Source: Desulfurobacterium indicum
Lineage (GTDB): Bacteria > Aquificota > Aquificia > Desulfurobacteriales > Desulfurobacteriaceae
Reading direction: 5' to 3'
Assembly: GCF_001968985.1 (NCBI RefSeq)
Contig: NZ_MOEN01000005.1
Span: forward strand, 1 to 64,000
Length of the DNA: 64,000 nucleotides
Part shown: in pieces, positions 535-21,239 of the stretch
Numbering within the stretch: the first letter of the stretch is position 1
How the letters are laid out: each line of letters begins with the position of its first letter
Notes under the pieces: generated by a model
What the model saw: only the letters and a program-made list of their open reading frames with translations
The model's database searches: none
What the model was told of the DNA's origin: nothing
Translations under genes and position numbers: made by a program

Positions 535-936
535 ATGGAAGCAACCGTTAAACCAAAAGCACCTATAAGGAGATTTGACATATTCGCAGAGTGGAACAGA
601 ATAAAAGGGATAAGGGAACTGGGACTTGATCCAGAAGATGCAAAATCTTACGGGCTTGCCGTTGCGGAAGTTGTAGCTGCAAGGAAATTTTACGGACACA
701 GAACAAAATACAGGGGAGCAACGAGAGAATACATAGAAAAGCATGAAGGAACTCCCTGGTGGCGCAAAATGGCCTCACCTGCCGAATTTGACGAGAAAAT
801 AGTCGAAAGAATGGGAAGGGAGTTCTATGAAAAAGTTTTTTCCAAAGCGATAGAAAAAGCATTCAACGAGGGTAAAGACTATATGGATATCAGGGATTCT
901 CTGCGAAAAAAATGGAACGAACTTTTAAAGAGATAA
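535..936 (+). CDS. Conserved-looking hypothetical protein, 133 aa
   Basis: I do not recognise this protein. It starts at ATG 535 behind a purine-rich ribosome-binding site (gaggggg). It is highly charged and soluble, with no signal peptide, membrane segment or cysteine. An aromatic/basic centre (residues 45-75, including KFYGHRTKYRG and TPWWRKM) is followed by long Lys/Glu helices to the C terminus. It stands alone between the insertion sequence and the converging hflX, whose 3' end it overlaps by 12 bases. The codon use looks like that of its neighbours, so it is probably a native gene rather than IS cargo. Confidence 0.7.
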   Translation: MEATVKPKAPIRRFDIFAEWNRIKGIRELGLDPEDAKSYGLAVAEVVAARKFYGHRTKYRGATREYIEKHEGTPWWRKMASPAEFDEKIVERMGREFYEKVFSKAIEKAFNEGKDYMDIRDSLRKKWNELLKR

Positions 937-2013
937 CGTTGTAACTATCTCTTCCACTTTTGTGAGAAAACTGCCAACGCCTTCTCCTGTTTTTGCCGAA
1001 AGAAAAACAGAATTCTCAGAATTTTTAACCTTTCCTGCAATCATCAACCGGAAAAGCTCTTCTTTTCCTTCAACAAGGTCTATTTTATTAAATACCGTTA
1101 TCCTTGGTTTGTCAGAAGCTCCTATCTCTTTGAGTATTTTTCCAACCGCTTCTGATTCTGTGTAAAGGTTCGGAGAGGTAATGTCATAAACAACAGCTAC
1201 AATATCTGAATCTGCAACTTCCTGAAGCGTCGCTTTGAAAGATGCTATCAACTCATGAGGAATATCTTTTATAAACCCCACAGTGTCTGTTATTAAAATT
1301 TTTCTATTTATACCTCTGAGAAAGATTCTTCCCGTTCTGGTATCCAGTGTGGCAAAAGGAATATTTTTAATAAAAAGGTCCTCTCCCGTGAGGCGCCTAA
1401 CAAGTGTTGATTTGCCGACATTCGTATAGCCTGCTACAGCAACCGTAATAAGGCCGCTCTTTCTTCGTCTTTCTGTAAAGAGAGAACGTCTCTTTGCATA
1501 CTTTTCTATCTCTCTTTTTAAAGAGTGTATCCTTCGCCTTATAGCCCTTGATTCCGTTTCCAGCAAGGTTTCACCGGGCCCTCTGGTCCCTATTCCGCCA
1601 CCAAGCCTTGAAAGCCCTTTTCCTTTTCCCCTTAACCTTGAAAGCTGATGATAACACCTTGCAAGTTCCACCTGTATCTTTGCCTCTTTAGTCCTTGCTC
1701 TTTCGGCGAATATATCCAGAATAATCTCGGTCCTGTCTCTAACTTTTAGCCCGGTTGCCTTTTCTATATTTCTTATCTGAGACGGAGATAGATTATGGTA
1801 GGTAACAACTAAAGAAGCGTCTTTTACTTCCGCAAATCTCTTTAGTTCTTCTATCTTTCCTTTTCCGACATAGGTTGAAGGATCAAAAGAGCGGCGGTGC
1901 TGAACAACAGAACCAACAACCTTGTAGCCCAAAGCTTCTACAAGGCCGGAAAGCTCTTCAATATCCGGCTGCTCACCGTGTTTTATAACTGAAAGAAGAA
2001 TAACCTTTTCTAT
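925..2013 (-). CDS. hflX: GTPase HflX, ribosome-associated
   Basis: HflX is a ribosome-associated GTPase that splits or rescues stalled ribosomes. The glycine-rich linker GGGIGTRGPGE and the G1 motif GYTNVGKST (about residue 195) are present. They are followed by the G3 motif DTVGF and the G4 motif NKID. The only canonical in-frame start is a TTG at 1930-1932, which would remove 27 clearly HflX-like residues (beginning M/I-EKVILLSVIKHGE). Upstream, the frame closes at a TGA inside hfq. The best-placed initiation codon is an ATA at 2011-2013, just after GGTGAGG and overlapping the hfq stop as ATAG. I therefore give the longer 362-aa form and treat the start as unusual. It is the last gene of the hfq-miaA operon, the classic order in proteobacteria. 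Confidence 0.9.
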   Translation of the reverse strand: MEKVILLSVIKHGEQPDIEELSGLVEALGYKVVGSVVQHRRSFDPSTYVGKGKIEELKRFAEVKDASLVVTYHNLSPSQIRNIEKATGLKVRDRTEIILDIFAERARTKEAKIQVELARCYHQLSRLRGKGKGLSRLGGGIGTRGPGETLLETESRAIRRRIHSLKREIEKYAKRRSLFTERRRKSGLITVAVAGYTNVGKSTLVRRLTGEDLFIKNIPFATLDTRTGRIFLRGINRKILITDTVGFIKDIPHELIASFKATLQEVADSDIVAVVYDITSPNLYTESEAVGKILKEIGASDKPRITVFNKIDLVEGKEELFRLMIAGKVKNSENSVFLSAKTGEGVGSFLTKVEEIVTTLSL

Positions 2014-2246
2014 CTTTCCTCACCCTCTGAAAATAGATTTCTCACAGGCCTTGAAGGAACTATTGTTGCAATAGAGTGTTTATAGACAAGCTGCTGGCTA
2101 TCACCTTCTTCGAGAACAATTGTAAACTGGTCAAAATAGGTTATAACCCCCTGCAATCTTGTTCCCTTAGCAAGGAAAATATTAACTGGAATTCTCTCTT
2201 TTCTTAACCTGTTTAAATAAGCATCCTGAACCTTAACAACACTCAT
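2010..2246 (-). CDS. hfq: RNA chaperone Hfq
   Basis: The product is a 78-aa Sm-like protein that forms hexameric rings and matches small RNAs to mRNAs. The Sm1 region (NIFLAKGTRLQGVITYFD) and the Sm2 motif YKHSIATIVPSR, equivalent to the YKH motif of Escherichia coli Hfq, are intact. The C-terminal tail is very short (about 10 residues), so only the core is present. The ATG overlaps the miaA stop by 4 bases and the hfq stop overlaps the proposed hflX start, implying translational coupling through miaA-hfq-hflX. Confidence 0.97.
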   Translation of the reverse strand: MSVVKVQDAYLNRLRKERIPVNIFLAKGTRLQGVITYFDQFTIVLEEGDSQQLVYKHSIATIVPSRPVRNLFSEGEER

Positions 2247-3157
2247 AAAACGCCTCCCTTCCTTAAATCATCTTTTATAACGTTAATTACTTCTTCTTCC
2301 GGTATTTCCGAAAGATTAATCCACTTAAAGCCTTTCTCTCTCCTGAACCAGGTAAACTGCCTTTTTGCAAACTGTCTTGTTCGCCTCTTTAGATCTCTCA
2401 CCGCCTCTTCAAGAGAAACTTTACCTTCAATATAGGGCAACAGCTCTTTGTAGCCAAGAGCCTGAAAGGCTGTTATTCCCTTTCCGTAGGAGAGTAACTT
2501 CCTCGCCTCCTGAACAAGTCCTCTCTCTATCTGAGAATCAACCCTGTTGTTTATCCTTTTATAAAGTTCATCTCTGTTACGATAGAGGAAATACCCGTAA
2601 AATTCGTAACGAGGCTTTTCGGGCAGCTTGAAAGATGACAGAGGCTTACCTGTAAGCTTGTAAACTTCCAGAGCCCTTATAATGCGCTTTCTATCCGTTT
2701 TATGAATCTTTGATGCATAACCGGGATCTACCTTTTTTAAGGAACTGTAAAGTTCTTCCGTAGAAACTTTGCTCAGCTCCCTCCTTATGCTTTCGTCAGC
2801 CGGTGGGACAGGAGAAAGACCGTAGAGAAGAGCTCTTATGTAAAACGCCGTTCCTCCTACTATGAGAGGAAACTTTCCCCTTTTCCTTATTTCTCTTATT
2901 GCCCTATCCGCCTCTTTAACAAAGTCTGCCACGGAAAAATAGACATCGGGGTATACAATATCTATCAAGTGATGAGGAATCCCTTCCATCCTATCCGATG
3001 AAATCTTGTCTGTTCCTATATCAAGTTCTCTGTAAACCTGCATCGAATCGGCACTGATTATCTCACCACCAATGGCTTTTGCAAGCTTTATAGAAAAATC
3101 AGTTTTTCCCGCCGCCGTGGGTCCGGTAATGACAATCAGAGGCTTTTCTCTTTCCAT
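2243..3157 (-). CDS. miaA: tRNA dimethylallyltransferase MiaA
   Basis: MiaA transfers a dimethylallyl group to N6 of A37 in tRNAs that read UNN codons. The 304-aa protein has the N-terminal P-loop GPTAAGKTD (residues 12-20), the SADSMQVYRELDIGTDK segment and the DRKRIIRALEVY segment of the family. The C-terminal tRNA-binding region has the RRTRQFAKRQFTWFR motif. Its 5' end overlaps the lpxL-like gene by 22 bases and its 3' end overlaps hfq by 4 bases, placing it inside one transcript. Confidence 0.96.
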   Translation of the reverse strand: MEREKPLIVITGPTAAGKTDFSIKLAKAIGGEIISADSMQVYRELDIGTDKISSDRMEGIPHHLIDIVYPDVYFSVADFVKEADRAIREIRKRGKFPLIVGGTAFYIRALLYGLSPVPPADESIRRELSKVSTEELYSSLKKVDPGYASKIHKTDRKRIIRALEVYKLTGKPLSSFKLPEKPRYEFYGYFLYRNRDELYKRINNRVDSQIERGLVQEARKLLSYGKGITAFQALGYKELLPYIEGKVSLEEAVRDLKRRTRQFAKRQFTWFRREKGFKWINLSEIPEEEVINVIKDDLRKGGVL

Positions 3158-4023
3158 CTCTTAAACTCCGGTGAATTGCTCCATCTTCTGTGACTCCAGA
3201 ACCACTGCTCCGGTCTTTTTTTCACTGCCATCTCTATCCAGTCAGAGTAAATTTTAGTGAGCTCTTCAACGCTCTTTCCTTCAGGATAGATAGGCCTATG
3301 TATCTCAAACGTGTAGCTGTTATCCGGTTCCATGTAACAGAAAGCAGGTATTACAGGCTTACCGGTTTTAACGCTCAAAACGGCAGCTCCTTTGTTAACA
3401 AATGTATCTCTTCCCAAAAACTTAACAAGAACACCGTCTTTTTGTCTCGGGCGTTGATCAAGGAGAATTCCTATAAAACGCTTTCTTTTTAAATCTTTTA
3501 TTATTTCAAGAATGTTACCAGTAGGAATAACCTTTATGTTCCAGTGGTTTCTTATACTATTAACCATCTCATTTACGTAAAAATTTTTCAGCGGTTTGGC
3601 AACAACGGATAATCTCCCGCCGCTGACATGAGAAAACCATCCGCCTAAAAGTTCCCAATTCCCTATATGAGCCGTAAGTAGTATTCCTCCGCTAAGGGAA
3701 ACAAGTTCATCCATTGAGATTGTGCTCTCTTTTCTAAGGGAAAAGATGGAATCAAGAAAATCAAATGAGTAGTTCTCAGAACGAAAAAAATCAACACTAC
3801 ATTTCACAAAAGTTTTAAACGCCTCTTTTCCTATTGAAAAAGGCATACCAACAAATCTTAAATTCTCCTCCGAAACCCTCTTAACACGGGGATAAGCGTA
3901 AAAAAGAGAAGCAAAAGAATCTGCGACTTTTAAAGCTCTATTACGGGAGAATTTCCTTAAAAACTTTTCCTTCAGTAACCTGAGAAGCAGATACTCCGTC
4001 CGGTAAGAAAGCTTTTTGTTCAT
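3136..4023 (-). CDS. lpxL: Lipid A biosynthesis acyltransferase, LpxL/HtrB family
   Basis: This is a Kdo-lipid A late acyltransferase type enzyme, which adds a secondary acyl chain to the lipid A precursor at the inner membrane. The catalytic motif is HIGNWE (HX4E form of the HX4D/E motif), preceded by SGGILLTA. The frame is open to 4092, but the ATG at 4023 is preferred because it has ATGAGG six bases upstream and gives the usual beginning (295 aa). This start lies inside the 3' end of lpxK, giving an 83-base same-strand overlap. With waaA and lpxK upstream it forms a lipid A/Kdo cluster. Substrate chain length cannot be read from the sequence. Confidence 0.88.
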   Translation of the reverse strand: MNKKLSYRTEYLLLRLLKEKFLRKFSRNRALKVADSFASLFYAYPRVKRVSEENLRFVGMPFSIGKEAFKTFVKCSVDFFRSENYSFDFLDSIFSLRKESTISMDELVSLSGGILLTAHIGNWELLGGWFSHVSGGRLSVVAKPLKNFYVNEMVNSIRNHWNIKVIPTGNILEIIKDLKRKRFIGILLDQRPRQKDGVLVKFLGRDTFVNKGAAVLSVKTGKPVIPAFCYMEPDNSYTFEIHRPIYPEGKSVEELTKIYSDWIEMAVKKRPEQWFWSHRRWSNSPEFKRWKEKSL

Positions 4024-5050
4024 CTTTTTCCTCATGTTTCTCAACATTCTTAATCCTGTTAACAATAAACTCCTTAAGTCCGAATACTTCAACGCTCAAA
4101 ACGGGAAACTTAAAGGATAATTTTCCTTTTAACTTTACAGCATCTTTTTCTGTAGTAACAAGGTTAGGATATTTACAAAGTCTTTCAATATCTTCATCCG
4201 TATAAGTATAGTGATCAGGAAAAAGAAAAACTTTTTCAAGATCAAATCCTTTTAACTTGAGCATCTCAATAAACTGCTCCGGATTTCCTATCCCACAAAA
4301 AACATTAATATCCCTGGGAGGCGGTGAAGTCTCAGAAAGATTCTCGTCCATCCAGCCATTAAAAGTCTGATGTGCCCTAAAAACAGGTTTTTTAAAAGTT
4401 TTTAGATAAAGCTCTATTGAATTTATCTTTTCAACAGGTGCAAGATTTGACCTGGAAAGAACAAAGCAGTGAGCCCTCTCAAGAGCCGAAACGGGCTCTC
4501 TCAATGTTCCTAAGGGGAGACAGTGATTTCCCCCAAAGGGATTGAAGGGATCAACCACAACAATATTAACAGTGGAAACTATTTTTAACTGTTGAAATCC
4601 ATCATCAAGGACAACTATGTTGGCACCTTTCTCAGCGGCAAAATCTATTCCTTTTAGCCTATCCCTGCTGACGACAACTCTGAAACCTCTTCTGGCGAAG
4701 ATCACTGCTTCATCACCGAACTTTTTTGCATCGTCCCGAGCAAGTACAGGCCCTTTTTCAGTCCCACCGTAACCTCTCATAACGATTGCAGGAGAAAAGC
4801 CCATATCCTCAAGCATCCTGTAAATAAACTCAACGAGGGGAGTCTTCCCGGCTCCACCGACAACTATGTTCCCAACGGATATAACAGGAATTTTTGGAAC
4901 AACAGACGTCAAAATACCGTGACGATAAAGATCTATTCTCGCAGAAGAAACTAAGCAGTAAATCTTTGACAAAAGATAGAAAATAGGATAAAGCAAAGCC
5001 CAACCTTTTTCTTTTTTAAAAACCTTTTTTCTAATCTCCTCAAGTCTCAA
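3941..5050 (-). CDS. lpxK: Tetraacyldisaccharide 4'-kinase LpxK
   Basis: LpxK phosphorylates the 4' position of the lipid A disaccharide. The 369-aa protein has an N-terminal hydrophobic anchor (LYPIFYLLSKIYCLV), the P-loop segment GNIVVGGAGKTP near residue 65 and the VLDDGFQ motif of the family. The start is a TTG whose bases form TTGA with the waaA stop. The tail after about residue 330 is Lys/Glu-rich and poorly conserved in appearance, and its coding sequence is shared with the start of the next gene. It is slightly longer than typical LpxK. Confidence 0.95.
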   Translation of the reverse strand: MRLEEIRKKVFKKEKGWALLYPIFYLLSKIYCLVSSARIDLYRHGILTSVVPKIPVISVGNIVVGGAGKTPLVEFIYRMLEDMGFSPAIVMRGYGGTEKGPVLARDDAKKFGDEAVIFARRGFRVVVSRDRLKGIDFAAEKGANIVVLDDGFQQLKIVSTVNIVVVDPFNPFGGNHCLPLGTLREPVSALERAHCFVLSRSNLAPVEKINSIELYLKTFKKPVFRAHQTFNGWMDENLSETSPPPRDINVFCGIGNPEQFIEMLKLKGFDLEKVFLFPDHYTYTDEDIERLCKYPNLVTTEKDAVKLKGKLSFKFPVLSVEVFGLKEFIVNRIKNVEKHEEKDEQKAFLPDGVSASQVTEGKVFKEILP

Positions 5051-19314: not shown

Positions 19315-20889
19315 TTAAATCTCCTTGTACATATCCGGAAGCATAAATCTCCTTAATTTTCCTATTCTTGTTCTCGGAAGTTCTCTATCTGTTAATTTAA
19401 ACTCCTTAACTTTCTTATAAGACTGAAGATGTCTTGTCGTTCTTTTCACTTCCTGCTTTATAAACTCATGAATATCTTCTACGCCTTCCTCTATTAAAAG
19501 TTCAAAATCAGGTCTGATAATAGCCTTGATAACACCATCTTCTTCAAAAACGCCAACTTCAAGGATATAGTTGCTCTTAAAAATTTCATTTTCAATATCT
19601 TCAGGATATACATTCTTACCGTTATCAAGCACAATAACATCTTTTGCACGTCCGGTAATGTGAATAAAACCATCATCATCAATAAAACCTAAATCTCCGG
19701 TATAAAACCATCCATCTCTTATAACCGCCTCTGTCTCTTCAGGACGGTTGTAATAACCTTTCATCACATTATCGCCTTTAACTACAATTTCTCCGTTAAC
19801 TATTTTTACTTCAACACCTTTAATCGGCAGTCCTGCCGAACCTATCTTCTTCTTATCAGGTCTATTAACAGAAACAAGGGGAGATGTTTCTGTAAGACCA
19901 TAACCCTCCAAAATATTAAAACCTAATGCTTCCAGACCTTTAGCAACTTCAACATTCAATTTAGCTCCACCAGAAATCATAAACCTTAAAGACGGTCCTA
20001 TCTTTTTATGAACCTCTTTAAACACCGCTCTTTGAAGCTTCTTTATGCCAACTTTCTTAAACAACTTAAGAGCAGAATTGACGATACTTTTCTTTGGACC
20101 TGAAAGTTTTCCTATTTCCACCATTATATTATGGTAAATAACCTGATAAAGCTTAGGAACACCTACCATAATGGTTACGTTCTGTTCCCTTATAGTAGAA
20201 AGTATGTCGTTCGGCGTAAGCTTCTCTATAAAAGCAACGGGGAGAGCTTCTACAATAGGTAAAATTGCCGTAACAAGCAGCGGGTAGGTATGATGGAAAG
20301 GTAAAATGGCGGCAAAACGGTCATTTTCTCTCAAAACTCCCGTATCTTCTATTCCTTCAATGTTATGATTAAGATTCTTATAAGTAAGCATTACACCTTT
20401 AGGATTCCCTGTAGTTCCCGAGGTGTAGAGAATAACAGCCACTTCATCAATATCTGGAACTTTAACCGTTAAAGGTTTATCTTCGTCAAAGGAGAGTTTA
20501 TCTACATTAATAACAGCCGGTTTATAACCAAGTTTCTTTACTGCTTTTTTAACCTTCTCTTCATTGGCAGACGAGGTAATTATGTAGCGGGGCTGAGCAT
20601 CCCTGAATATGTTGAAAATTTCTTTTTCTGAGAGAAGATAATCCGAAGGAACAGCAATTCCTCTCTTAAATATTACAGCAAATAGAGAAGCTATCCATAA
20701 CGGAGAATTTTCCATGAAAATAACCACTCTATCCTCTTCGTTCAACTCGGACAATTTATCCTGAATAGTGGAAATTCTTTTTTTTAAATCTTTAAAAGTC
20801 AAAGGAATATACTTTCCATTTTTTTTATCAATAAGCACCACCTTATCCGATTTTTTTTCTAGATTTTCCACCACTCTTTCAAGAAACAT
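19315..20889 (-). CDS. AMP-dependent acyl-CoA synthetase/ligase (FadD-like)
   Basis: This is an adenylate-forming enzyme that activates a carboxylic acid, probably a fatty acid, as acyl-AMP and then acyl-CoA. The 524-aa protein has the AMP-binding motif YTSGTTGNPKGVMLTYKN near residue 160, the GYGLTETSPL motif and DGWFYTGDLGFIDDDG. The C-terminal TGRAKDVIVLDNGKNVYPEDIE segment carries the hinge. The ATG at 20889 is chosen because GGAGG lies 7 bases upstream; an earlier in-frame start would lack this. It ends an operon begun at ymdB. Confidence 0.88.
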   Translation of the reverse strand: MFLERVVENLEKKSDKVVLIDKKNGKYIPLTFKDLKKRISTIQDKLSELNEEDRVVIFMENSPLWIASLFAVIFKRGIAVPSDYLLSEKEIFNIFRDAQPRYIITSSANEEKVKKAVKKLGYKPAVINVDKLSFDEDKPLTVKVPDIDEVAVILYTSGTTGNPKGVMLTYKNLNHNIEGIEDTGVLRENDRFAAILPFHHTYPLLVTAILPIVEALPVAFIEKLTPNDILSTIREQNVTIMVGVPKLYQVIYHNIMVEIGKLSGPKKSIVNSALKLFKKVGIKKLQRAVFKEVHKKIGPSLRFMISGGAKLNVEVAKGLEALGFNILEGYGLTETSPLVSVNRPDKKKIGSAGLPIKGVEVKIVNGEIVVKGDNVMKGYYNRPEETEAVIRDGWFYTGDLGFIDDDGFIHITGRAKDVIVLDNGKNVYPEDIENEIFKSNYILEVGVFEEDGVIKAIIRPDFELLIEEGVEDIHEFIKQEVKRTTRHLQSYKKVKEFKLTDRELPRTRIGKLRRFMLPDMYKEI

Positions 20890-20951
20890 AAACAGACCTC
20901 CAGTCAAAGAATATTAGAAGCCGCTTTATTTTACAACACTTACTGGAAGAA

Positions 20952-21239
20952 TCAAATAAGGTCAACAATATCTGATATAGACTTTTTTTTATCTTCAATT
21001 ATTCTTATTAATTCACGTGCCGTTTTTTTCGAAACGTTCTTTCCCGCAGGAATAGCTTCTATTTTAAATTTCAAGTATCTGTTAACGGTATCTATCTCTA
21101 TAACATCCCCTTCTTTAACCTCTTTTGAAGCTTTCACCACGGAACCGTTTAATCTTACAACTCCTTCGTCACACAGTATCTTCGCCTGACTTCTCCTCTT
21201 TACCACTCTTGAAAGTTTCAGAAACTGATCTATCCTCAC
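20952..21239 (-). CDS. S4-domain RNA-binding protein, RqcP/Hsp15-like
   Basis: This is a small 95-aa protein that is almost entirely an S4 RNA-binding domain (MRIDQFLKLSRVVKRRSQAK, then GVVRLNGSVVKASKEVKEGD). This form matches RqcP (YabO)/Hsp15, which act on stalled 50S-nascent chain complexes. No RqcH gene is in the window. The GTG start has AGGAGAGG upstream and lies inside the end of the LapA-like gene, a 71-base overlap. Confidence 0.85.
   Translation of the reverse strand: MRIDQFLKLSRVVKRRSQAKILCDEGVVRLNGSVVKASKEVKEGDVIEIDTVNRYLKFKIEAIPAGKNVSKKTARELIRIIEDKKKSISDIVDLI

Follow-up and report, generated by a model that had tools for sequence, protein, structure and literature searches.

The hfq–hflX junction

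The window analysed here is a 64,000-nucleotide stretch of the Desulfurobacterium indicum genome, in which lpxK (3944-5050), a lipid A acyltransferase gene (3139-4092), miaA (2243-3157), hfq (2010-2246) and hflX follow one another in this order on the minus strand. MiaA was assigned by TIGR00174 (306.2 bits) and Hfq by TIGR02383 (92.2 bits) and PRK00395.1 (98.2 bits), and the miaA stop codon and the hfq ATG share a conventional ATGA overlap (2246-2243). The hflX coding region extends from an ATA to the last sense codon (928-2013, minus strand), directly below which lies the stop codon TAA (925-927), the open reading frame ending at 925. Over residues 8-358, the 364-residue frame scores 396.4 bits with NCBIfam TIGR03156 (GTPase HflX; cut-off 216.75), which places the protein in the curated HflX GTPase family over its whole length; matches to Pfam PF13167, PF16360 and PF01926 and the alignment of solved HflX chains identify the same gene. 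Of the three other genomes of the genus, G001 is the nearest relative (84% protein identity). The order miaA–hfq–hflX is the known one, whereas the overlap of the genes, the proposed AUA start and the lipid A genes adjoining miaA distinguish this locus. Downstream, a convergent plus-strand frame (535-936; 133 residues, no Pfam match) overlaps the end of hflX with its own end, and just past it lies a Mutator-family transposase (PF00872; 1-438, minus strand), which is cut by the window edge.

The hflX frame is closed upstream by a TGA (2020-2022, minus strand), after which it reads GGA AAG ATA GAA AAG GTT ATT and continues to a TTG at 1930-1932, its first conventional start and codon 28 counted from the ATA. 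The TGA leaves only GGA, AAG and ATA ahead of the conserved EKV, and the full codon list between the TGA and the TTG contains no ATG, GTG, TTG or CTG, in agreement with the original prediction that the frame lacks such codons before residue 28. The N-terminus as translated is EKVILLSVIKHGEQPDIEEL. Up to the first codons that look coding, the ATA proposed as the start codon (2011-2013, minus strand) is the only AUN codon with a workable Shine–Dalgarno spacing, and it is also present in the nearest relative. As had been predicted, it overlaps the hfq stop codon TAG (2012-2010) in a four-base ATAG (2010-2013).

A Shine–Dalgarno-like sequence, GAGGGTGA, is located inside hfq (2020-2027, minus strand), with 9 bases between the end of its GGAGG and the ATA in the scored register. 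A weaker GAGG register at 2021-2018 lies 4 bases from the ATA, and the GGTGAGG that had been described as ending 4 bases before it is indeed found there. The hflX ATA has a Shine–Dalgarno score of 14 at spacing 9, which is uncommon: of 187 genes whose conventional starts align between this genome and that of the nearest relative, 153 score at least 11, and only seven of these 153 have spacing 9, as against 109 with spacing 4-7. The TTG scores 8 at an unusable 20 bases. The 3' end of the 16S rRNA was sought twice in the assemblies of four genomes and was not found, and the anti-Shine–Dalgarno sequence was therefore assumed to be the usual one. The ATAG register occurs by chance in four other overlapping gene pairs of the sample compared, each with a canonical start close by; it is therefore uninformative alone, and was rejected as evidence in its own right.

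Coding character of the codons ahead of the TTG

In a comparison with the nearest relative, hflX codons 2-27 carry one, one and nine substitutions at first, second and third positions, respectively, a third-position excess with P = 0.0014, and codons 4, 5 and 6, where the earliest changes occur, each differ in the third base. Since coding-like change is under way at codon 4 and a stop codon lies two codons above the ATA, the possible starts are limited to GGA, AAG, ATA and the few codons that follow. The TIGR03156 match begins at residue 8 (profile position 4), 22 residues ahead of the TTG. Among solved HflX chains, the alignments start at residue 1 for the mycobacterial 8vkw and 8vio, at residue 13 for E. 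coli HflX and at residues 18-19 for the archaeal and mitochondrial proteins; PF13167 begins at residue 17. In the AlphaFold2 model (20-sequence alignment, mean pLDDT 83.1, pTM 0.78), the first strand comprises residues 3-10 and the first helix residues 18-27, with block pLDDT values of 91, 75 and 90 over residues 1-30. The substitution pattern, the family and structure alignments and the predicted structure thus agree in indicating that the codons between the ATA and the TTG are translated, and the earlier proposal that they encode a genuine HflX N-terminus is borne out.

Start codons of hflX and infC in related genomes

The junction of hfq and hflX in G001 (L003), an independent assembly, contains the identical ATAG. 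In this genome an in-frame GTG also lies two codons above the ATA at a Shine–Dalgarno spacing of 3, which is rare (5/153 genes of the D. indicum genome and 4/157 of G001), and its hflX could start at either the GTG or the ATA. The junction of G003 (L005) consists of GGGGAGG, six bases, CTG and ATTAA, with no conventional start at a proper distance, and that of G002 (L004), a metagenome-derived genome whose contig matches L032, consists of GAGGAGG, six bases, CTG and AGTAA; here one ATG abuts the Shine–Dalgarno sequence (spacing 0, found in 0/153 of the D. indicum genes) and another lies farther up. Judged from these sequences, hflX in both G002 and G003 looks to start at the CTG, which a strong Shine–Dalgarno sequence precedes at the optimal distance of six bases. 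The genus thus has ATA at hflX in two of four genomes (one of them with the GTG two codons up) and CTG in the other two, and none of the four has an ATG at a proper Shine–Dalgarno spacing. All 16 other family loci that were read (L006-L021) have a normal hflX start (15 ATG and one GTG), and with the D. indicum Hfq as the query (E 1e-3) no hfq was found beside hflX in these 16 loci. The suggested comparison, whether ATG replaces ATA in relatives, thus gives a mixed outcome. G010 and G019, in which hflX is broken or partial, were left out of this count; in G010 (C11:35553-36598) stop codons and a change of frame disrupt the gene.

A second gene of the genus appears to resemble hflX in its start. 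In all four genomes, infC, which encodes IF3 (G000:C2 near 100300, L144; also L143, L145 and L215), reads AAGGAGG, five bases, ATA AGT AAG AAA. The infC ATA of D. indicum has a Shine–Dalgarno score of 19 at spacing 5, compared with 14 at spacing 9 for hflX. A TTG is present just ahead of the infC Shine–Dalgarno sequence in D. indicum, G001 and G003; it is TTA in G002, which therefore has no conventional start at this position. The 15 other family genomes read have ATT (nine) or ATC (six) at the same place of infC, and outside the family this codon is ATT in four of four f3 genomes, ATG in the one f2 genome and TTG or ATG in the f4 genomes (the survey covered 41 genomes, four of which gave no infC match). 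Judging from these sequences, infC appears to begin at AUA in this genus, and the ATT and ATC of the relatives indicate that the group has long initiated this gene at an AUN codon, which became AUA here. The apparent AUA start of infC is a cleaner case than that of hflX and gives it its best support, so that the odd start of hflX is probably real. In E. coli, infC starts at AUU and is autoregulated by IF3. The hflX start resembles that of E. coli infC in being an AUN codon that IF3 would be expected to reject; however, HflX is not IF3, and any control by IF3 would act here on another gene.

Similar genes were screened for in 748,798 of the 1,605,600 bases of the D. indicum genome compared with 800,000 of the approximately 1.7 million bases of G001. 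The first screen gave 207 non-overlapping coding-like pairs, in 64 of which at least six aligned codons precede the first conventional start; most of these 64 have no third-position excess and consist of conserved Shine–Dalgarno and upstream-gene sequence. An excess over at least ten codons was found in hflX (27 codons, 1/1/9) and in two other frames: one at 20863-21189 of the window (95 codons), opposite a frame of similar length, and a cytochrome gene on G000:C6 interrupted by a TAA (15 codons, 1/0/7). This in-frame TAA (G000:C6:29474-29476, minus strand) lies outside the window; by eye, the frame it interrupts contains CxxCH-like haem motifs, and its counterpart in G001 is intact. The TAA marks either a pseudogene or an assembly error. 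In an extended screen of 397 pairs 14 frames passed, of which five lie opposite longer frames, two lie opposite frames of similar length and three share an ATG just past the conserved stretch; the remainder are the broken cytochrome, hflX, and two frames (C3 25915 and C9 13868) with a serine-rich head ahead of later ATGs. This screen misses infC because a TTG sits in the infC Shine–Dalgarno region.

A third screen, with thresholds of our own choosing, covered the 366 orthologous frames that reach 120 codons (31 shorter ones of the 397 being dropped) and retained those with an aligned AUN, CTG or ACG behind a strong Shine–Dalgarno sequence in both genomes and with no strong conventional start. 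Five of the 366 frames passed, and infC and hflX remain after three were set aside by eye, for an adjacent ATG (two frames on C8) or an ATG ten codons upstream with a weak Shine–Dalgarno sequence (C9). The screen is incomplete, because 37 of the 366 frames gave no aligned conventional start in the stretch scanned. For hflX, the codon list, the coding signal and this screen together place an AUN codon at the onset of homology with no credible conventional start.

Probable initiation at AUA and its possible consequences

The ATA at 2013-2011 is the best candidate for the hflX start, as originally proposed, and four other readings were weighed against it. A shorter HflX beginning at the TTG, with the codons upstream untranslated, is what a gene caller would choose, the TTG being the first conventional start; however, the codons ahead of it change like coding sequence, it has no usable Shine–Dalgarno sequence, and a start there would cost strand 1, helix 1 and about 11 residues of PF13167. 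The possibility, raised earlier, of relatives whose HflX begins at this shorter position found no support, as no conserved start at that position was seen among the relatives read and the TTG of D. indicum is TTA in the nearest relative. The short form is accordingly very unlikely, and was rejected on the upstream coding signal, the loss of the strand and helix and the lack of a Shine–Dalgarno sequence. The AUA might instead be a relic, with the real start at another odd codon (AAG at 2016-2014, GGA at 2019-2017 or the ATT at codon 5): the conserved stretch confines the start to about codons -2 to 5, and the GTG of G001 and the CTG of G003 may be starts situated one or two codons higher. This is an unlikely reading, however, since AUA keeps two of the three standard initiator-tRNA pairs (positions one and two), which none of the other candidates except ATT does, and the ATT lies about 21 bases from the Shine–Dalgarno sequence.

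HflX could also be made as an Hfq–HflX fusion by a -1 frameshift toward the hfq 3' end, hflX being in the -1 frame relative to hfq and the two frames overlapping. Inspected by eye, however, the overlap is open in both frames for only about seven bases (GGAAAGA) and contains no slippery heptamer in either D. indicum or G001, and in relatives outside the genus HflX is produced by itself, from a normal start; we consider such a fusion barely credible. A sequencing or assembly error concealing a conventional start is also highly improbable. The genome is a 61-contig draft in which the cytochrome gene at G000:C6 has its unexpected in-frame TAA, but an error at 2011, a concern raised with the original prediction, is disfavoured because the nearest relative, independently assembled, has the identical ATAG, formed by the same bases as the hfq stop codon.

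On the sequence evidence, hflX is likely to be initiated at AUA 2013-2011 with the assistance of a Shine–Dalgarno sequence and in coupling with hfq, giving little HflX and possibly being sensed by IF3. Ribosomes terminating hfq at UAG (2012-2010) would be held by GAGGGUGA inside hfq and would re-start one base back, at the AUA, with the initiator tRNA. The yield of HflX would be low because the third base of AUA mismatches the initiator anticodon, and the odd start probably keeps HflX scarce; few HflX molecules would be made per Hfq, at a yield that the strictness of IF3 toward poor start codons may set. The four-base stop/start overlap, the Shine–Dalgarno sequence within the upstream gene and the co-directional operon are shared with the ATGA and TGATG pairs that undergo termination–reinitiation, as described in PMC6728339; however, hflX combines AUA with UAG (AUAG) in place of the conventional AUG with UGA, and its coupling to hfq is putative.

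The closest experimental counterparts are in Staphylococcus aureus, for which infC, ccpN and citZ are described as having experimentally known AUA starts (PMC13009471). As proposed for hflX, these AUA codons lie behind a Shine–Dalgarno sequence and have a role in keeping output low, and infC is itself AUA-started, as it apparently is in this genus. According to the same study, S. aureus AUA or AUU starts give about 10% of the output of AUG, rising for ccpN to up to 30% in rich medium. The S. aureus sites were, however, mapped by Ribo-Ret, and cvfC1 (AUU), ccpN (AUA) and citZ (AUA) were tested with reporters, whereas the hflX start is predicted from sequence, and hflX is another gene in another phylum, with a start that overlaps the stop codon of the gene upstream.

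IF3 is reported to tolerate only Watson–Crick pairs at the first two start-codon positions and, in a reconstituted system, to prefer strong pairing at the third base and reject weak pairing (PMC10158994); IF3 is further described as blocking subunit re-association and HflX as splitting stalled ribosomes (PMC9067457). With infC apparently AUA-started as well, a fall in IF3 would be expected to move infC and hflX in the same direction. It is conceivable, if doubtful, that IF3 and HflX, each of which keeps the two ribosomal subunits separate in its own way, are tied in one feedback: both genes would start with codons that IF3 rejects (AUA for infC in all four genomes, AUA or CUG for hflX), a shortage of IF3 would raise both, and hfq translation would set the ceiling for HflX.

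In conclusion, AUA starts and stop–start overlaps are each already known, and the new part would be the AUAG overlap proposed to start hflX, of which no description was found in searches of the open-licence literature. AUA starts are few in bacteria, and gene callers restricted to ATG, GTG and TTG shorten the proteins that begin with them. Should the proposed start be correct, hflX would be a gene other than infC that naturally begins with AUA in a deep-branching thermophile, placed within an AUAG stop–start overlap, and the genus would offer, in infC and hflX, a small testable set for the question of whether IF3 controls other genes through the choice of start codon.
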